A DNA stretch of 64,000 nucleotides. Source: an uncultured Paracoccaceae bacterium (GTDB taxonomy: Bacteria; Pseudomonadota; Alphaproteobacteria; Rhodobacterales; Rhodobacteraceae). A program made the translations under genes and the position numbers. Under the pieces are notes generated by a model. It saw only the letters and a list, made by a program, of their open reading frames with translations. It had not been told where the DNA came from and searched no databases. The stretch is from contig CANNFE010000002.1 in NCBI GenBank assembly GCA_947503775.1, forward strand, positions 1-64,000, written 5' to 3'. Positions 42,957-50,544 of the stretch are shown here, piece by piece; the first letter of the stretch is position 1; every line of letters starts with the position of its first letter.

Positions 42957-44102
42957 ATGTTCCTGACTGCCAACTGGTCCTATCCCACTGCCATCCGGTT
43001 CGGGGCGGGCCGTATCTCTGAGATTGCGGAGGCCTGTGCAGCGGCGGGGATCAGTAAGCCGCTGCTGGTGACGGATCGGGGGCTCGCGAGCCTGCCGATC
43101 ACGATCGGGACGCTCGATCTGCTAGAGGCAGCGGGTCTTGGGCGGGCTTTGTTTGCGGAGGTTGATCAGAACCCGACCGAGATCAACGCCGAAGCCGGGA
43201 TCCGCGCGTTTCGCGAGGGCGGGCATGACGGGGTGATCGCCTTTGGCGGCGGTTCTGGGCTGGATCTGGGGAAGGTCGTGGCCTTTATGGCCGGGCAGAC
43301 GCGTCCGATCTGGGAGTTCGAGGATGTGGGCGATTGGTGGACCCGCGCCGATGCGGAGGCGATTGCTCCCATCGTGGCTGTGCCGACGACCGCCGGGACA
43401 GGCTCGGAGGTCGGGCGGGCCAGCGTCATCACCAACAGCGAGACGCATGAAAAGAAGATCATCTTTCACCCGAAGATCCTGCCGACGGTGGTGATCTGCG
43501 ATCCGGAGCTGACGGTGGGGATGCCGCCTGCGATCACGGCGGGGACGGGGATGGATGCCTTTGCCCATTGCCTCGAGGCGTTCTGTTCGCCGCATTATCA
43601 CCCGATGAGCCACGGGATCGCCCTGGAGGGGATGCGGCTGGTCAAGGAGAACCTACTGAAGGCGTTCAAGGACGGCAGCGATATCGAGGCCCGGGCGCAT
43701 ATGATGTCGGCGGCGGCGATGGGGGCGACGGCGTTCCAGAAGGGACTGGGCGCGATCCATGCGCTGTCCCATCCGATCGGGGCGGTGCATCACACCCATC
43801 ACGGGACGACCAATGCGGTGGTGATGCAGCCGGTGCTGATGTTCAACAAGTCCAAGGTGCGGCGGTCCTTGGCGCGAGCGGCGAACTACCTGAGCATCGC
43901 GGGCGGGTTCGACGGGTTCTATGCCTATGTGGGCGAGCTGAATACCGCTTTGGGGATCCCCAAGACACTGACCGAGCTGGGCGTGGCCGATCCGGATCTG
44001 GATGCGCTGGTGACGTCGGCCCTGGCCGATCCCAGCTGCGGGGGCAATCCGGTGAAGATGACCGCGAAGAACACGCGCGAGCTGCTGGAGAGCTGTTTCT
44101 AG
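42957..44102 (+). CDS. Iron-containing alcohol dehydrogenase
   Basis: FGAGRISEIAEACAAAGISKPLLVTDRGL; VIAFGGGSGLDLGKVVAFMAGQ; AVPTTAGTGSEVGRASVITN; HALSHPIGAVHHTHHGTTNAVVMQP. Confidence 0.93.
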   Translation: MFLTANWSYPTAIRFGAGRISEIAEACAAAGISKPLLVTDRGLASLPITIGTLDLLEAAGLGRALFAEVDQNPTEINAEAGIRAFREGGHDGVIAFGGGSGLDLGKVVAFMAGQTRPIWEFEDVGDWWTRADAEAIAPIVAVPTTAGTGSEVGRASVITNSETHEKKIIFHPKILPTVVICDPELTVGMPPAITAGTGMDAFAHCLEAFCSPHYHPMSHGIALEGMRLVKENLLKAFKDGSDIEARAHMMSAAAMGATAFQKGLGAIHALSHPIGAVHHTHHGTTNAVVMQPVLMFNKSKVRRSLARAANYLSIAGGFDGFYAYVGELNTALGIPKTLTELGVADPDLDALVTSALADPSCGGNPVKMTAKNTRELLESCF

Positions 44103-44194
44103 GGCGCTCCCTTTTTGCATCACCGGTCCGAGGAAGCGTTTGGGACGCTCGACGGGCGCGCGGCGGGGCGGCTAGAACGCGTCAGGGCAGGACG

Positions 44195-44866
44195 GTGAGG
44201 ATTGGTGTGTTCGGAGAAGGAACGGCAGCGCGCGGCGCCGCGGCATCGATTGCGGGCCGGTTTCTGGCGGGGTTTGCCAAATTCGTGACGGCTCCGCGGA
44301 TTGAGTGGCGCGGCGTAGCGCCGACGGCGCGGCAGCGGATCTATTTCGCGAACCATTCCAGCAATGGCGATGCGGTTCTAATCTGGGCGGCGCTGCCCGG
44401 TGCGGCGCGGCGGCGGGCGCGGCCGGTGGCGGCGGGGGATTACTGGCTGACCAGCAAGCTGCGCACCTTCATCGGGCGGGACGTCTTTCGGGCGATCCTG
44501 ATCGAGCGTCGGCCGGATGAGCGGACGGATGATCCGCTGGAGCTGATCGGGGAGGCTTTGACGAACGGGGATTCGCTGATCCTGTTTCCGGAGGGGCGGC
44601 GCAACGATACCGAAGCGCGATTGCTGCCGTTCAAGTCGGGGATCTATCATCTGGGGCAGGCGCATCCAGGCGTGGAGCTGGTACCGGTCTGGGTCGCCAA
44701 CCTCAACCACGTGATGCCGCGCGGGGAGGTCGTTCCGATCCCGCTGATCTGCACGGTCGTCTTCGGCGCGCCGATTGAGGCGCGGGAGGGCGAGGAAAAG
44801 GACGCGTTTCTGGAGCGGGCGCGGGAGGCGTTGCTGGCGCTGGCGCCGGAGCGGGAGGGATCATGA
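44195..44866 (+). CDS. 1-acyl-sn-glycerol-3-phosphate acyltransferase-like (PlsC family)
   Basis: RIYFANHSSNGDAVLIWAAL (NHxxxxD-like), LILFPEGRRND; GTG start at 44195. Confidence 0.8.
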   Translation: MRIGVFGEGTAARGAAASIAGRFLAGFAKFVTAPRIEWRGVAPTARQRIYFANHSSNGDAVLIWAALPGAARRRARPVAAGDYWLTSKLRTFIGRDVFRAILIERRPDERTDDPLELIGEALTNGDSLILFPEGRRNDTEARLLPFKSGIYHLGQAHPGVELVPVWVANLNHVMPRGEVVPIPLICTVVFGAPIEAREGEEKDAFLERAREALLALAPEREGS

Positions 44867-45801
44867 CGACGCCGCCCGAGCTATTCACGCTGCTGCTGTG
44901 GCTTTTCGGGTTCCTGGCGGTGGCCACGCTGATCGGAGAGGGTCTGGCGCGGCGGATCTCGCCCGACGGCACGCATCCGACGATCGAGAACCTCAATGCG
45001 CGGATCCGTTCCTGGTGGAATATGGTGATCCTGATCGGGCTGGCCTTGCTCGCCGGGCGGACGGGGATCGTGATCCTCGCGGCGATCTGTTCCTTTGCGG
45101 CGCTCCGCGAATTCCTGACGTTGACGACGAAGAACCGGGGCGATCACTGGGCGTTGGTCGTTGCGTTCTTTGTCGTGTTGCCGGTGCAATACGTGCTGAT
45201 CTGGCTGGAATGGTACGGGCTTTATTCGATTTTCATCCCGGTTTACGGCTTCCTGTTCCTGCCGATCATCGCGGCGTTTCGCGGGCATTCGGAGAATTTC
45301 CTGCACCGGATTTCAGAGACGCAATGGGCGCTGATGGTCTGCGTCTTTTGCCTGAGCCACCTGCCTGCGCTGATCTCGCTTGAGATCGAGGGCTATGAGG
45401 GGCGGCAGATCATGCTAGTCGCGTTCCTGATCGTGGTCGTGCAGATGAGCGACGTTCTGCAATATGTCTGGGGCAAGCTGCTGGGGCGGCACAAGATTGC
45501 GCCGAGCCTGTCCCCGTCCAAGACGTGGGAGGGGTTTGTCGGCGGGATCCTGAGCTCGAGCCTGATCGGGGCGAGCCTGGCCTGGATGACGCCGTTTTCG
45601 GCCTTCGAGGCGGCGGCATTGTCGCTGGTCATCACGATGATGGGGTTCTGCGGGGGGCTGGTCATGTCGGCGATCAAGCGGGACCGGGGCGTGAAGGATT
45701 GGGGGCATCTGATCGAAGGGCATGGCGGGTTCCTCGACCGGCTGGATTCGGTGATCTTTGCGGCGCCGATTTTCTATCACCTCGTGCGGTTCTTTTATTG
45801 A
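44863..45801 (+). CDS. Phosphatidate cytidylyltransferase (CdsA family)
   Basis: LGRHKIAPSLSPSKTWEGFVGGILSSSLIGASLAW...SAIKRDRGVKDWGHLIEGHGGFLDRLDSVIFAAPIFYHLVRFF (CTP_transf_1 signature). Confidence 0.92.
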   Translation: MTTPPELFTLLLWLFGFLAVATLIGEGLARRISPDGTHPTIENLNARIRSWWNMVILIGLALLAGRTGIVILAAICSFAALREFLTLTTKNRGDHWALVVAFFVVLPVQYVLIWLEWYGLYSIFIPVYGFLFLPIIAAFRGHSENFLHRISETQWALMVCVFCLSHLPALISLEIEGYEGRQIMLVAFLIVVVQMSDVLQYVWGKLLGRHKIAPSLSPSKTWEGFVGGILSSSLIGASLAWMTPFSAFEAAALSLVITMMGFCGGLVMSAIKRDRGVKDWGHLIEGHGGFLDRLDSVIFAAPIFYHLVRFFY

Positions 45802-45805
45802 GCCG

Positions 45806-46438
45806 ATGACCGATCCCGCGCGCAGACCGATCAAGACAAGAGATGCCGGATGGGTCCGGCGGATTGCGCGGCGGCTGTCGGCGTCGGACGTGACGCCGAA
45901 CCAGATCTCGAAGGCGAGTATCGGGTTCGCCGCTGTGGCCGGTGTGGCCTTTGCTTTGGCAGGATGGTTCGGGGCCGGGTGGCCTCTGCTGGTGGCGGCG
46001 GTCGGGATCCAGATGCGGCTGCTGTGCAACCTTTTCGACGGGTTGGTCGCGGTCGAGGGTGGCAAGGCAGAGCCGGACGGGCCGCTCTGGAACGAGATGC
46101 CGGACCGGATCGCGGATCTGCTGATCCTTGTCGGCGCGGGCGTGGCGGCTGGCGTCTTCTGGCTGGGCTGGGCGGCTGCGGCGGGGGCTTTGCTGACAGC
46201 GTATATCCGGGCGATGGGGGTTGCTTTGAGCGCGCCGGAGAATTTCGGCGGGCCGATGGCCAAGCCGCAGCGGATGGCGGTGATGACGGGCGCGGCTGTG
46301 CTGGGCTTTGGAGAGTGGCTCTGGACCGGGAGCGGTTACGTGCTGCTGGCGGGGCTGGGGATCGTGGCGCTGGGGTCGGGTGCGACGTTCTGGCTGAGGA
46401 CGGCGCGGTTGCTGCGGCATTTGCGAGACACCGGTTAG
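45806..46438 (+). CDS. CDP-alcohol phosphatidyltransferase family protein
   Basis: LLCNLFDGLVAVEGGKAEPDGPLWNEMPDRIADLLILVG (DGxxAxxxx...G...D..D variant). Confidence 0.82.
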   Translation: MTDPARRPIKTRDAGWVRRIARRLSASDVTPNQISKASIGFAAVAGVAFALAGWFGAGWPLLVAAVGIQMRLLCNLFDGLVAVEGGKAEPDGPLWNEMPDRIADLLILVGAGVAAGVFWLGWAAAAGALLTAYIRAMGVALSAPENFGGPMAKPQRMAVMTGAAVLGFGEWLWTGSGYVLLAGLGIVALGSGATFWLRTARLLRHLRDTG

Positions 46439-46534: not shown

Positions 46535-46936
46535 ATGACGACCATTCCTGCGCCATCCGATTTTCCCGCTCCGCCTGTTCCGCTGGGGCGGCATTTGATC
46601 GTCGAGTTTCATGACGCCGCCAATCTGGAGGACCCCATCGCCATCGGCGCGGGTCTGGAGGAGGCCGCGCGTGAGGCGGGCGCGGTGATCCTTCAGACCA
46701 AGCTGCATAATTTCGGCGAAGGGATGGGGGTGACCGGCGTCGTGCTGCTGGCCGAGAGCCATATCAGCATCCACACCTGGCCCGAACATAACTATGCCGC
46801 CATCGATGTGTTCATGTGCGGCGATGCGCGTCCGGATCTGAGCGTCGAGCATCTCAAGACGGTGTTCCGGCCCGGACGGGCGGAGGTGATGGAGATTGCC
46901 CGGGGGGCCGCGATCTCTGCCGTGTCGCCTGCCTGA
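46535..46936 (+). CDS. speD: S-adenosylmethionine decarboxylase proenzyme
   Basis: LGRHLIVEFHDAANLEDP...ESHISIHTWPEHNYAAIDVFMCGDARPDLSVEHLKTVFRPGRAEVMEIARG. Confidence 0.9.
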   Translation: MTTIPAPSDFPAPPVPLGRHLIVEFHDAANLEDPIAIGAGLEEAAREAGAVILQTKLHNFGEGMGVTGVVLLAESHISIHTWPEHNYAAIDVFMCGDARPDLSVEHLKTVFRPGRAEVMEIARGAAISAVSPA

Positions 46937-46939
46937 CGG

Positions 46940-48244
46940 GTGCCTGCCCGCGCGGAGGTTCAGCTATCCGACTATCTGATTACAGGTGTGCTGCTGGTGA
47001 CCGCCTGCGCGCTGTTCTCGGGCCTTGGGCCGGGGAAATTTCCGGTGCCGGACGAGGGTCCGGCGCGGCTGGGCTGGGCCTTGGCGAATATTCTGCGGCA
47101 CGGCGATGCCGGGCATCTGTTCGGCAATGTGGCGCTGGTCGGGATCGCCGGGTATCTGATCGAGCCGGTGATCTCTCGCGGGCGATTTGTCGCGCTGGTG
47201 GCGCTGTCGGGCGTCGTCGGCACCACGCTAGAGATGGCGCTGGTCGATGCGCGGTTTCTGGGGCTGTCGGGGGTCGCCTACGGCATGGTGGCCTTTGCCG
47301 CGCTGGGACCGGCGCGGGCGCGGATTGGGCTGGTGGGGACGCTTGTTCTGATCGTCTTTGCGGTGGCGGAGACCGCTTATCTTTGGCCTGATGTCGCGCT
47401 TTACGCGCATTTGGGCGGTGCAGTGACAGGAGGAAGTCTGGCCATGCTTGGCGGATTATTCGGACCCAAGACCCCGCAATTGCGGCCTATGGAATTCAAG
47501 CACCTGAAGCGGGTGATCGAGATCATCAACGAGACCGATGAGGACGACGCCGAAGAGGCCGAGGAGGACCTACTGGAGAGCAAGTTCGAGGACATGTTCG
47601 TTCTGGTGAAGGGCAATCAGGTGCTGGGTGTCACCGGGGCGAGCCTGGCGGAGGATTCGGACGATATCATGTGGCTCTCGTGGACCTACCTAGCCGAAGA
47701 CGCGCAGGGGGACGGGCTGGGGCGGCAGATGATCGAGGATCTGCTGCACATGCTGAACGACCGGCAAGTGCGCAAGATCTTCATCGCGACAAGCGATTAC
47801 CGCGAGGGCGGCAAGCGGATCTACAACGATGCGCACAAGCTTTATAAGAAGCTGGGTGCTCAGGTGGAGCTGGAAGTTCCTGCCTATCATTCGCCTTTCG
47901 AGGGCAAGATCGTCTACGGCTTCGACAACCCGAATGTGACGCCCGATCCCGTGACGCTTGGCAAGGCGACCGGGCTGCGGTTCACCGGCACGACGCGGGC
48001 GCCCGAATCCGAAGGCGGGGCAGCGCTGCTCTGGACCGAGAACGGCCTGGATGTGAGCGGTCTGGACGACGTGCTGAACGAGGCGAGAGCCAAGAAGGCG
48101 CGGGCGGTCTTTACGTCGCTTCCGGCGGATCTGTCTGCGAGGGCCGAGGAGGCTCTGACGGCGGCGGATCTGAAGAAGATCGGAACGCTCAAGGACTATT
48201 ACGCGGTCGGGGTCGATCAGGTGTGGTGGGCCCGTCACATGTAG
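46940..48244 (+). CDS. N-terminal rhomboid-like intramembrane protease domain fused to a cytosolic GNAT-like acetyltransferase
   Basis: Rhomboid-like GHLFGN, GLSGVAYGM and AHLGGAVTG motifs in a multi-TM region; GNAT-like SWTYLAEDAQGDGLGRQMIEDLLHMLNDRQVRKIFIATSDYREGGKRIYNDAHKLYKKLGAQVE. Confidence 0.75.
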   Translation: MPARAEVQLSDYLITGVLLVTACALFSGLGPGKFPVPDEGPARLGWALANILRHGDAGHLFGNVALVGIAGYLIEPVISRGRFVALVALSGVVGTTLEMALVDARFLGLSGVAYGMVAFAALGPARARIGLVGTLVLIVFAVAETAYLWPDVALYAHLGGAVTGGSLAMLGGLFGPKTPQLRPMEFKHLKRVIEIINETDEDDAEEAEEDLLESKFEDMFVLVKGNQVLGVTGASLAEDSDDIMWLSWTYLAEDAQGDGLGRQMIEDLLHMLNDRQVRKIFIATSDYREGGKRIYNDAHKLYKKLGAQVELEVPAYHSPFEGKIVYGFDNPNVTPDPVTLGKATGLRFTGTTRAPESEGGAALLWTENGLDVSGLDDVLNEARAKKARAVFTSLPADLSARAEEALTAADLKKIGTLKDYYAVGVDQVWWARHM

Positions 48245-48332: not shown

Positions 48333-48929
48333 ATGGGTAACCTTAAGACGCTTATTTTCCTCGGTGTAGCTGGCTACATCGGATATACATTTTTGATGGA
48401 CGGCACCGGGACACAGTCCGCGGATCTGGGCCAAGTGCTGGATCGCACCGAATATGCCATCAACGAATACCAGACCGCCCTGGCCGACAATGGCATCGAA
48501 GAGGTCAGCCAGGACAATATCGACGAGTTCACCGGTCTCATGACGATCATGATGAACATCGAGCCGCGGTTCTACGACGAGACACTGGGTGTCGATCTGA
48601 TGCAGGATGCCACGTTCCTCGGCTATGCCGACACGAACGCCAATGGCGTGCAGGATTCGGGTGAAGACAAAGTCTTTACCGTCGAGATCGACGAAGAGAA
48701 CCAGCGCCTGATCGCAACGGATGTGGCCGGTAACTCCTCGGGTCTGCGTTTTTCGGCGACCGGGTTCCTGGCCGGTGCGCTGATCGGCAACCTGATCAAC
48801 CGTCAGCGGGCCGCAGGCGTCAGCAAGGCGTCGTTCAACAACCGCAACGTCACACCGCGGTCGAGCTATCGTCCCCCGTCGAGTGCGCGTACCCGCGCCC
48901 GGTCCGGCGGTGTCGGCGTCGGCAAGTAA
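48333..48929 (+). CDS. Single-TM protein with a dockerin/EF-hand-like Ca2+ loop, function unknown
   Basis: N-terminal TM GNLKTLIFLGVAGYIGYTFLM; loop DTNANGVQDSGED; basic Ser/Arg/Gly-rich C-terminus. Confidence 0.7.
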   Translation: MGNLKTLIFLGVAGYIGYTFLMDGTGTQSADLGQVLDRTEYAINEYQTALADNGIEEVSQDNIDEFTGLMTIMMNIEPRFYDETLGVDLMQDATFLGYADTNANGVQDSGEDKVFTVEIDEENQRLIATDVAGNSSGLRFSATGFLAGALIGNLINRQRAAGVSKASFNNRNVTPRSSYRPPSSARTRARSGGVGVGK

Positions 48930-48987: not shown

Positions 48988-50544
48988 GTGAGCTTCCCCA
49001 TGCAAACCTCCGTTACCACCGACACCTACAAAGACCTTCCGGCGGCCAAGGCGACGATTCTGCTGCTGTCGATCATGGTCGTGGCCTCCTGCGGGATTGT
49101 CTACGAGCTGATTATCGGGACCGTGTCGAGCTATCTGCTGGGCAATTCGGTCTACCAGTTCTCGCTGACCATCGGCTTTTTCATGTTCGCGATGGGCATC
49201 GGATCGCATCTGTCGCGCTACGTCGAAAGCCGCCTGATCGAGGCGTTCATCTATGTGGAGCTGGTGCTCGCCCTGATCGGCGGCCTGTGTTCGATCGCGC
49301 TGTTTTTGATGTTTCCCTTTGCGCCCTGGATGTATCAGGTCGCGAAGTTCGGGTTCATTCTGTCGATTGGCGTTCTGGTCGGGCTCGAGATCCCGATCCT
49401 GACGCGGATCCTGGCCGAGCGGGGCGGAACGCGGACCTCGATCGCCAATGTCATGTCGCTGGATTATATCGGGGCGCTGGTCGGATCGGTGGCCTTTCCG
49501 CTGCTGCTGCTGCCGTCGCTGGGGCTGATCACGGCGTCTTTCGCCATCGGGCTGATCAACATCTCGGTCGCGGCGCTGAATGTGATCTGGCTGAAGGACT
49601 ACATCCGCAATCTTCGGATGGCGCAGATCGCGGTGGGCACGATCTTTGTCTTGCTTCTGGTGCTGACGGCCACGGCGACGCGGATCACGGCCTATGCGCA
49701 GCAGCATCTGTATTTCGATCAGATCGTCTGGCAGCAGCAGACGCCCTATCAGTCGCTGGTCGTGACCAATAGCTGGCCCCGGTCGGACTTTCGGCTTTTC
49801 ATCGACGGGCATCTGCAGTTTTCGGAGTTCGACGAGCATCGTTATCACGAGGCGCTGGTGCATCCGGTGATGGGCTGGACCGGTGAGGCAAGGAACGTGC
49901 TGGTACTGGGCGGCGGCGACGGTCTAGCGGTGCGCGAGATCCTCAAGCATCCGGGCGTGGAGCGGATCGATCTGGTCGATATCGACCCCGCGATGACCGA
50001 TCTGGGCGCGACCTTTCCGCATCTGGTGCGGATGAACGGCGGTAGTCTTGCCTCGGAGAAGGTGGAGATTTTCAACGCGGATGCCTTCGTTTTCATCAAG
50101 GAGACGGACCAGATCTATGACAAGGTCATCATCGATTTCCCCGACCCGCATAACGAGGCGATTGCGAAGCTCTATTCGGTCGAGTTCTACGCGATGCTGT
50201 CGCGCAAGATGAGCGACGGCGCGACGCTGGTGTCGCAAAGCAGCTCTCCGTTCTTTGCGACGAACACCTATTGGACGATCGCGGCGACGATGGAGGAGAT
50301 CTTTCCGGCGACGACGTCCTACACGCTGGATATCCCGTCCTTCGGGGTTTGGGGCTTTCATATGGCGCATAAGGCGCCGGGCGGGATGATGACGGGCGTG
50401 CCGGAGGATCTGCGGTTCCTCTCGGACGAGGTGTTCCAGGCGATGCTGACCTTTCCGCGGGATATCGCGCGACCCGAGGAGCTGGAGCCGAATTCGATCT
50501 TCGAGCCGTCGCTTTACGAGGTTTATCTGAAGGATCTGGGATAA
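48988..50544 (+). CDS. speE: Membrane-embedded polyamine aminopropyltransferase (spermidine-synthase-like with N-terminal TM domain)
   Basis: Multi-TM N-terminus (SCGIVYELIIGTVSSYLLGNSVYQFSLTIGFFMFAMGIGSHLSRYVE) plus SpeE catalytic core (YQSLVVTNS...LFIDGHLQFSEFDEHRYHEALVHP...VLVLGGGDGLAVREILKH). Start is GTG 48988 or ATG 49000. Confidence 0.9.
   Translation: MSFPMQTSVTTDTYKDLPAAKATILLLSIMVVASCGIVYELIIGTVSSYLLGNSVYQFSLTIGFFMFAMGIGSHLSRYVESRLIEAFIYVELVLALIGGLCSIALFLMFPFAPWMYQVAKFGFILSIGVLVGLEIPILTRILAERGGTRTSIANVMSLDYIGALVGSVAFPLLLLPSLGLITASFAIGLINISVAALNVIWLKDYIRNLRMAQIAVGTIFVLLLVLTATATRITAYAQQHLYFDQIVWQQQTPYQSLVVTNSWPRSDFRLFIDGHLQFSEFDEHRYHEALVHPVMGWTGEARNVLVLGGGDGLAVREILKHPGVERIDLVDIDPAMTDLGATFPHLVRMNGGSLASEKVEIFNADAFVFIKETDQIYDKVIIDFPDPHNEAIAKLYSVEFYAMLSRKMSDGATLVSQSSSPFFATNTYWTIAATMEEIFPATTSYTLDIPSFGVWGFHMAHKAPGGMMTGVPEDLRFLSDEVFQAMLTFPRDIARPEELEPNSIFEPSLYEVYLKDLG

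Follow-up and report, generated by a model that had tools for sequence, protein, structure and literature searches.

GlpG is an N-in membrane protein with six transmembrane (TM) helices. The six-TM core of the Escherichia coli protein (PDB 2xow, 4qnz; PF01694), with its HxxxN motif, GxSG serine, and TM6 histidine, is shared by the protein described here, which differs in lacking the N-terminal cytosolic domain of GlpG and in carrying a GNAT acetyltransferase attached C-terminally after TM6. The functions of bacterial rhomboids are mostly unknown, and no intramembrane protease joined to an acyltransferase emerged from the literature searched. Among bacterial genes, infB and clpB have in-frame internal starts that give long and short forms; the gene described here resembles them in combining one open reading frame (ORF), an internal Shine-Dalgarno sequence and start, and a shared C-terminus, but its predicted internal start would set a soluble enzyme apart from the membrane protease encoded before it. 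Such a start, being conserved, would supply one enzyme from one gene in two forms, membrane-bound and free. In GNATs, the alpha1-alpha2 region helps shape the acceptor site. The nearest solved structure to the GNAT half, a putative D-alanine N-acetyltransferase of Desulfovibrio (2r7h), has in common with it the fold, the motif A glycines, and the alpha4 tyrosine; the two are about 20% identical, and the GNAT studied here is set apart by its acidic, invariant alpha1-alpha2 region, its C-terminal degenerate half-GNAT, and its membrane fusion.

The target of membrane-fused aminopropyltransferases was reportedly posed as an open question by Li et al. in 2019. The question is echoed in PMC11237479, where membrane aminopropyltransferases of the PRK03612 type are placed in operons with PspA, DUF350, and DUF4178, and where they are suggested to sense polyamines or to aminopropylate other substrates. 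Such operons (PMC11237479; Novosphingobium plasmid locus L051) share just SpeD and the membrane aminopropyltransferase with the gene cassette reported here, which has no adjacent DUF350, DUF4178, SPFH, or PspA gene and has in their place the rhomboid-GNAT fusion and a small protein that we call the tail protein; the cassette is a compact handle on what these enzymes act on. Its likeness to YgiB/YgiC (a DUF1190 protein and a peptide-spermidine ligase) is superficial, consisting of a small envelope protein beside a polyamine-related enzyme: YgiB and the tail protein each combine a short hydrophobic segment with a Ser/Gly/Arg tail, homology between them is not detectable, and the cassette, unlike YgiB/YgiC, has no ATP-grasp gene. 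Literature searches for a rhomboid combined with a GNAT or with a spermidine synthase found nothing relevant; the parts are known, their combination did not appear in the literature searched, and the conserved internal start would make a nested gene of the fusion.

The window (the whole stretch of 64,000 nucleotides that was analysed) comes from a marine-type bacterium and holds the fusion as one continuous ORF with a GTG start (Table 1). Both of its halves score above the Pfam gathering cut-offs, Rhomboid (PF01694) over residues 51–170 (E = 6e-10; 39.9 bits against 22.6) and Acetyltransf_1 (PF00583) over residues 197–291 (E = 4e-8; 34 bits against 20.7). An AlphaFold model built on a 29-sequence alignment (mean pLDDT 88.5, pTM 0.66) runs from six TM helices to a GNAT fold and then a further alpha/beta stretch, the GNAT following directly from the rhomboid with no separate linker between the domains. 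A contig scan with the single fusion protein as query found nothing outside its own genome; with an alignment as query, 30 loci were returned, 25 of them full fusions. In each of these 25 the same fusion lies in an open frame with zero internal stops, and the remaining two frames contain 2–35 stops. The relatives are alphaproteobacterial, 39–51% identical, and distributed over at least 12 named genera, including Ruegeria, Litoreibacter, Jannaschia, Halocynthiibacter, Loktanella, Yoonia, Actibacterium, Sulfitobacter (S. algicola), and Pseudaestuariivita; two Hyphomonadaceae metagenome-assembled genomes (MAGs) also have the fusion. With the window's own copy they make up the 26 fused proteins counted below; the 29-protein alignment also takes in standalone GNATs. 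The joining of a rhomboid and a GNAT in one membrane protein, as put forward in the preliminary description of this DNA, is thereby borne out, and we are highly confident that the fusion and its cassette exist.

Table 1. Features of the rhomboid-GNAT cassette, with positions in the window
Feature	Position	Strand	Basis
speD, AdoMet decarboxylase, cassette gene 1	46535..46936	+	Pfam AdoMet_dc, E 1e-32; NCBIfam SAM_DCase_Bsu above cut-off
Rhomboid-GNAT fusion, long form, 434 aa	46940..48244	+	Pfam, relatives' alignment, AlphaFold model
Rhomboid domain, six TM helices, residues ~9–174	46964..47461	+	Pfam, AlphaFold helices, GlpG profile match
HxxxN motif, H59 and N63	47114..47128	+	Kept in 26/26
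Putative catalytic Ser110 (GxSG)	47267..47269	+	26/26; aligned to GlpG GLSG serine
Putative catalytic His157, TM6	47408..47410	+	26/26; aligned to GlpG TM6 histidine
Internal Shine-Dalgarno AGGAGG, in GGA GGA codons of Gly164-Gly165	47428..47433	+	Shine-Dalgarno counts, codon-choice scan
Short form: predicted soluble GNAT, 266 aa, internal ATG (Met169)	47444..48244	+	Start codon in 26/26; standalone GNAT starts
GNAT domain, residues ~179–332, including acidic alpha1-alpha2 ETDEDDA	47474..47935	+	Pfam, alignment, AlphaFold, fold match
Degenerate partial GNAT copy, residues ~340–434	47957..48241	+	AlphaFold secondary structure; hhalign to first GNAT, E 2e-5
Tail protein, ~198 aa	48333..48929	+	Alignment of 28 homologues; model pLDDT 79
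Membrane polyamine aminopropyltransferase, SpeE-like	49000..50544	+	NCBIfam PRK03612; Pfam Spermine_synth

The rhomboid part matches the GlpG profile (E = 5e-14) and, in Foldseek, the GlpG structure 2xow (E = 3.4e-6). The motifs HLFGN, GLSG, and AHLGG singled out in the preliminary description are indeed present, the family profile aligning the HxxxN, GLSG serine, and TM6 histidine of GlpG with H59/N63, S110, and H157. Loss of the catalytic residues in homologues had been named as a possible objection; H59, N63, G108, S110, Y114, and H157 are present in every one of the 26 fused proteins, and with its Ser-His dyad intact the rhomboid is probably an active protease. The fusion falls below the equivalog cut-offs for rhombosortase (TIGR03902; 29.5 against 84 bits) and for GlpG (TIGR04239; 25.9 against 250 bits). 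By homology to GlpG, the protease site would open toward the periplasm, and the GNAT, following TM6, would lie in the cytoplasm alongside acetyl-CoA.

In Foldseek the GNAT part is matched to 2r7h (E = 5.5e-9); Ard1 and NatC are also among its fold matches, and PaiA is one of many. No polyamine acetyltransferase model (SpeG, PaiA, or SSAT) appears among its NCBIfam matches. The acetyl-CoA motif (Q/R)xxGx(G/A) is represented by G257 and G261 in 26 of 26 proteins and by G259 in 24 (Ala in the rest), with Thr instead of Gln/Arg at position 256 in half of the proteins, and the alpha4 tyrosine (Y302) is kept in the fused proteins. The stretch ETDEDDAEEAEEDLLESKFED, taken in the preliminary description for an acidic linker, belongs instead to the GNAT fold: in the AlphaFold model it forms helices alpha1 and alpha2 (residues 186–199 and 201–214), and its acidic residues are invariant. 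T199, D200, D202, D203, A204, and A207 are unchanged in all 29 sequences, standalone GNATs included. Because this acidic patch is fixed at the acceptor site, it suggests a basic or amine-rich acceptor. The C-terminal extension described earlier repeats the second half of the GNAT fold in degenerate form.

Wherever a fused locus can be read, the gene order is speD, rhomboid-GNAT, tail protein, and membrane aminopropyltransferase (the last position is masked in one locus, L027), and speD adjoins the fusion in all fused loci. The window's aminopropyltransferase, whose ORF opens at 48883 with a likely ATG start at 49000, exceeds the PRK03612 equivalog cut-off over its membrane and synthase parts (607.6 against 472 bits). 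SpeD and Spermine_synth are each encoded once in the window genome, in both cases within the cassette, and a search of that genome for carboxynorspermidine decarboxylase, as the mark of an alternative spermidine route, gave no match above cut-off. With speD and a membrane aminopropyltransferase as neighbors, the fusion seems to belong to amine or polyamine chemistry. Four loci (one in Cohaesibacteraceae, two in Neomegalonema, and one in Roseibium) have the GNAT, the tail protein, and the aminopropyltransferase without the rhomboid and without an adjacent speD; of these, L046 is 5'-incomplete and L041 is close to the end of its contig. Each of these genomes has one speD, located elsewhere, and in Roseibium and one Neomegalonema the sequences place this distant speD beside a canonical soluble speE (L063 578–2082; L066 1204–2767), so that the membrane enzyme is unlikely to be just the spermidine synthase of these organisms. 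Directly upstream of the cassette in the window (43568–46438) are lipid genes, namely a PlsC-type acyltransferase-like ORF (43568–44866), a CTP_transf_1 gene (44863–45801), and a CDP-alcohol phosphatidyltransferase-like gene (45758–46438); in the first six relatives, no homologues of these genes were found beside the cassette.

The tail protein comprises an N-terminal hydrophobic TM helix, a folded domain, a short Gly-zipper helix (residues 145–160), and a basic tail that is almost devoid of acidic residues and ends in R[STA]GGxxxGK (RSGGVGVGK in the window); R190, G192, G193, G197, and the C-terminal K198 are invariant in 28 sequences. At 49–71% identity among relatives it is more conserved than the fusion. 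A PDB search with its fold gave no match, and no family scored above cut-off. Residues 98–137 give a weak SdrD_B-like match. Membership of YgiB/DUF1190 was considered and rejected (hhalign probability 0.2%; no DUF1190 Pfam match in 28 members). Since the protein is alike with and without the rhomboid, nothing marks it as a rhomboid substrate; co-conserved and with an invariant basic C-terminus, it is a concrete candidate for the target of a membrane aminopropyltransferase. A second tail protein gene is found in the cassettes of a Ruegeria (L025, 10022–10648) and of one Hyphomonadaceae MAG (L039, 1740–2345).

At the end of TM6 the fusion gene carries what appears to be a second translation start. 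The codon of Met169 is an in-frame ATG in 22 and GTG in four of the 26 fused genes, and the standalone GNATs of the rhomboid-less loci start exactly at its equivalent. A strict Shine-Dalgarno sequence lies 4–12 nucleotides upstream of this codon in 24 of 26 genes, compared with 13 (1.8%) of 727 other in-frame ATG, GTG, and TTG codons of the same genes, the fused species being related, so that such counts are not independent and formal p-values overstate the case. The two remaining genes have only AGGA or GGAG-like remnants, the signal is kept but shifted one codon later in some species, and the spacing from GGAGG to ATG is 7–10 nucleotides, on the long side in many. Codon choice follows the same pattern: GGA is used at the two TM6 glycine positions in 19 of 25 and 23 of 24 cases, as against 11% of glycine codons elsewhere, and Gly-Gly pairs carry a Shine-Dalgarno signal in 25 of 28 cases at the site and in 2 of 64 elsewhere in these genes. 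An unbiased codon-choice scan over 416 alignment columns, from which near-copies had been removed beforehand, put residue 165 first (z = 5.4), residue 164 third (z = 3.7), and residue 166 fourth (z = 3.1); at 40–50% protein identity, synonymous sites are expected to be largely saturated. These data are good evidence for selection on initiation at Met169, and the gene most likely yields two proteins, a membrane rhomboid-GNAT and a soluble GNAT.

The reading that we favor, and consider on balance probable, is that of a conserved gene encoding two nested products within a polyamine-type cassette, with a GNAT that would act on an amine made at the membrane. Translation from the start next to the speD stop would give a six-TM, probably active rhomboid carrying a cytosolic GNAT; initiation from the second ribosome-binding site, in the TM6 Gly-Gly codons, at the in-frame ATG or GTG would give the soluble GNAT alone. 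Using acetyl-CoA, the GNAT would most likely acetylate an amine-rich substrate bound at the acidic, invariant alpha1-alpha2 patch, this substrate being made or modified at the membrane, where SpeD would supply decarboxylated AdoMet and the membrane aminopropyltransferase would act. The rhomboid may hold part of the GNAT at this site and cleave a membrane protein, leaving two GNAT pools, one membrane-held and one free. The sequences themselves establish the fusion with its catalytic residues, the cassette, and the selected internal start signal, from which we infer that both products are made and both enzymes are active; confidence in the substrates is low.

Several other explanations can be set beside it. 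Possible, though doubtful, is an ordinary pathway for spermidine or another free polyamine, with the GNAT as a polyamine N-acetyltransferase by which the product is detoxified or trimmed. The presence in the cassette of speD and of the window genome's only SpeE agrees with it, as does the acidic acceptor side of the GNAT, but Roseibium and Neomegalonema have both the cassette with the membrane SpeE and, apart from it, a speD paired with a soluble speE, the GNAT matches none of the polyamine acetyltransferase models, and both the tail protein and the rhomboid would be left unexplained. An unlikely but more far-reaching idea is a membrane protein-modification system, in which the aminopropyltransferase with SpeD would aminopropylate, and the GNAT acetylate, the tail protein, the internal start setting the ratio of bound to free GNAT; the target would most likely be the basic C-terminal tail with its invariant Gly-Lys, bound by the acidic alpha1-alpha2 region, and the rhomboid would cleave the tail protein or another partner. 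If true, a membrane aminopropyltransferase would thereby gain a known protein acceptor. We also think it improbable that the full-length fusion is the sole product, with the GGAGG at the TM6 end serving as a ribosome pause for membrane insertion before the GNAT folds and the methionine being structural. Such a pause would give the same codon bias, and the signal does sit at the boundary between membrane and soluble domains; a pause site requires no start codon, however, yet ATG or GTG stands at initiation distance in all 26 genes, and Met169 is also where standalone GNATs begin.

The preliminary description had further suggested that the GNAT could acetylate the N-terminus freed by rhomboid cleavage, coupling the two reactions. 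In both domains the catalytic features look intact, and the N-terminal acetyltransferases among the fold matches (Ard1, NatC) would fit, but a GlpG-type topology puts the two sites on opposite faces of the membrane, which makes N-terminal acetylation of a cleavage product unlikely; a few lineages also have the GNAT but no rhomboid, which makes acetylation independent of the protease, and a separate start for a soluble GNAT is conserved. We regard this coupling as very improbable, in favor of the nested two-product gene. The chance that two genes were joined by a sequencing error or a recent stop loss in the window genome is negligible: a standalone GNAT gene does occur elsewhere and its old start signal persists, but the same open fusion recurs at 25 loci elsewhere, spread over at least 12 genera, which rules out an assembly or frameshift artefact. 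The frameshift or missed start at the junction against which the preliminary description had warned was checked through these relatives, and the single gene stands.

The cassette is rare and patchy. A search of 397 genomes of the family with the GNAT half gave the window and six strong matches, all open frames of 429–469 amino acids, plus one weak match to a short GNAT; 385 genomes sampled from the class contained no fusion apart from the window's own. Viral and plasmid origins were considered and rejected, viral contigs holding zero relatives of the fusion or the tail protein and a search of plasmids with the fusion giving just one weak rhomboid. On whether the fusion was gained or the rhomboid lost, a SpeE tree with an unresolved base nests the rhomboid-less Roseibium among fused lineages with moderate support (94/89) and places the other three rhomboid-less loci near the base. 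An insertion of 12 residues between TM6 and the GNAT occurs only in the two Hyphomonadaceae fusions (L039, L042), in which the GGAGG and a GTG start are kept.
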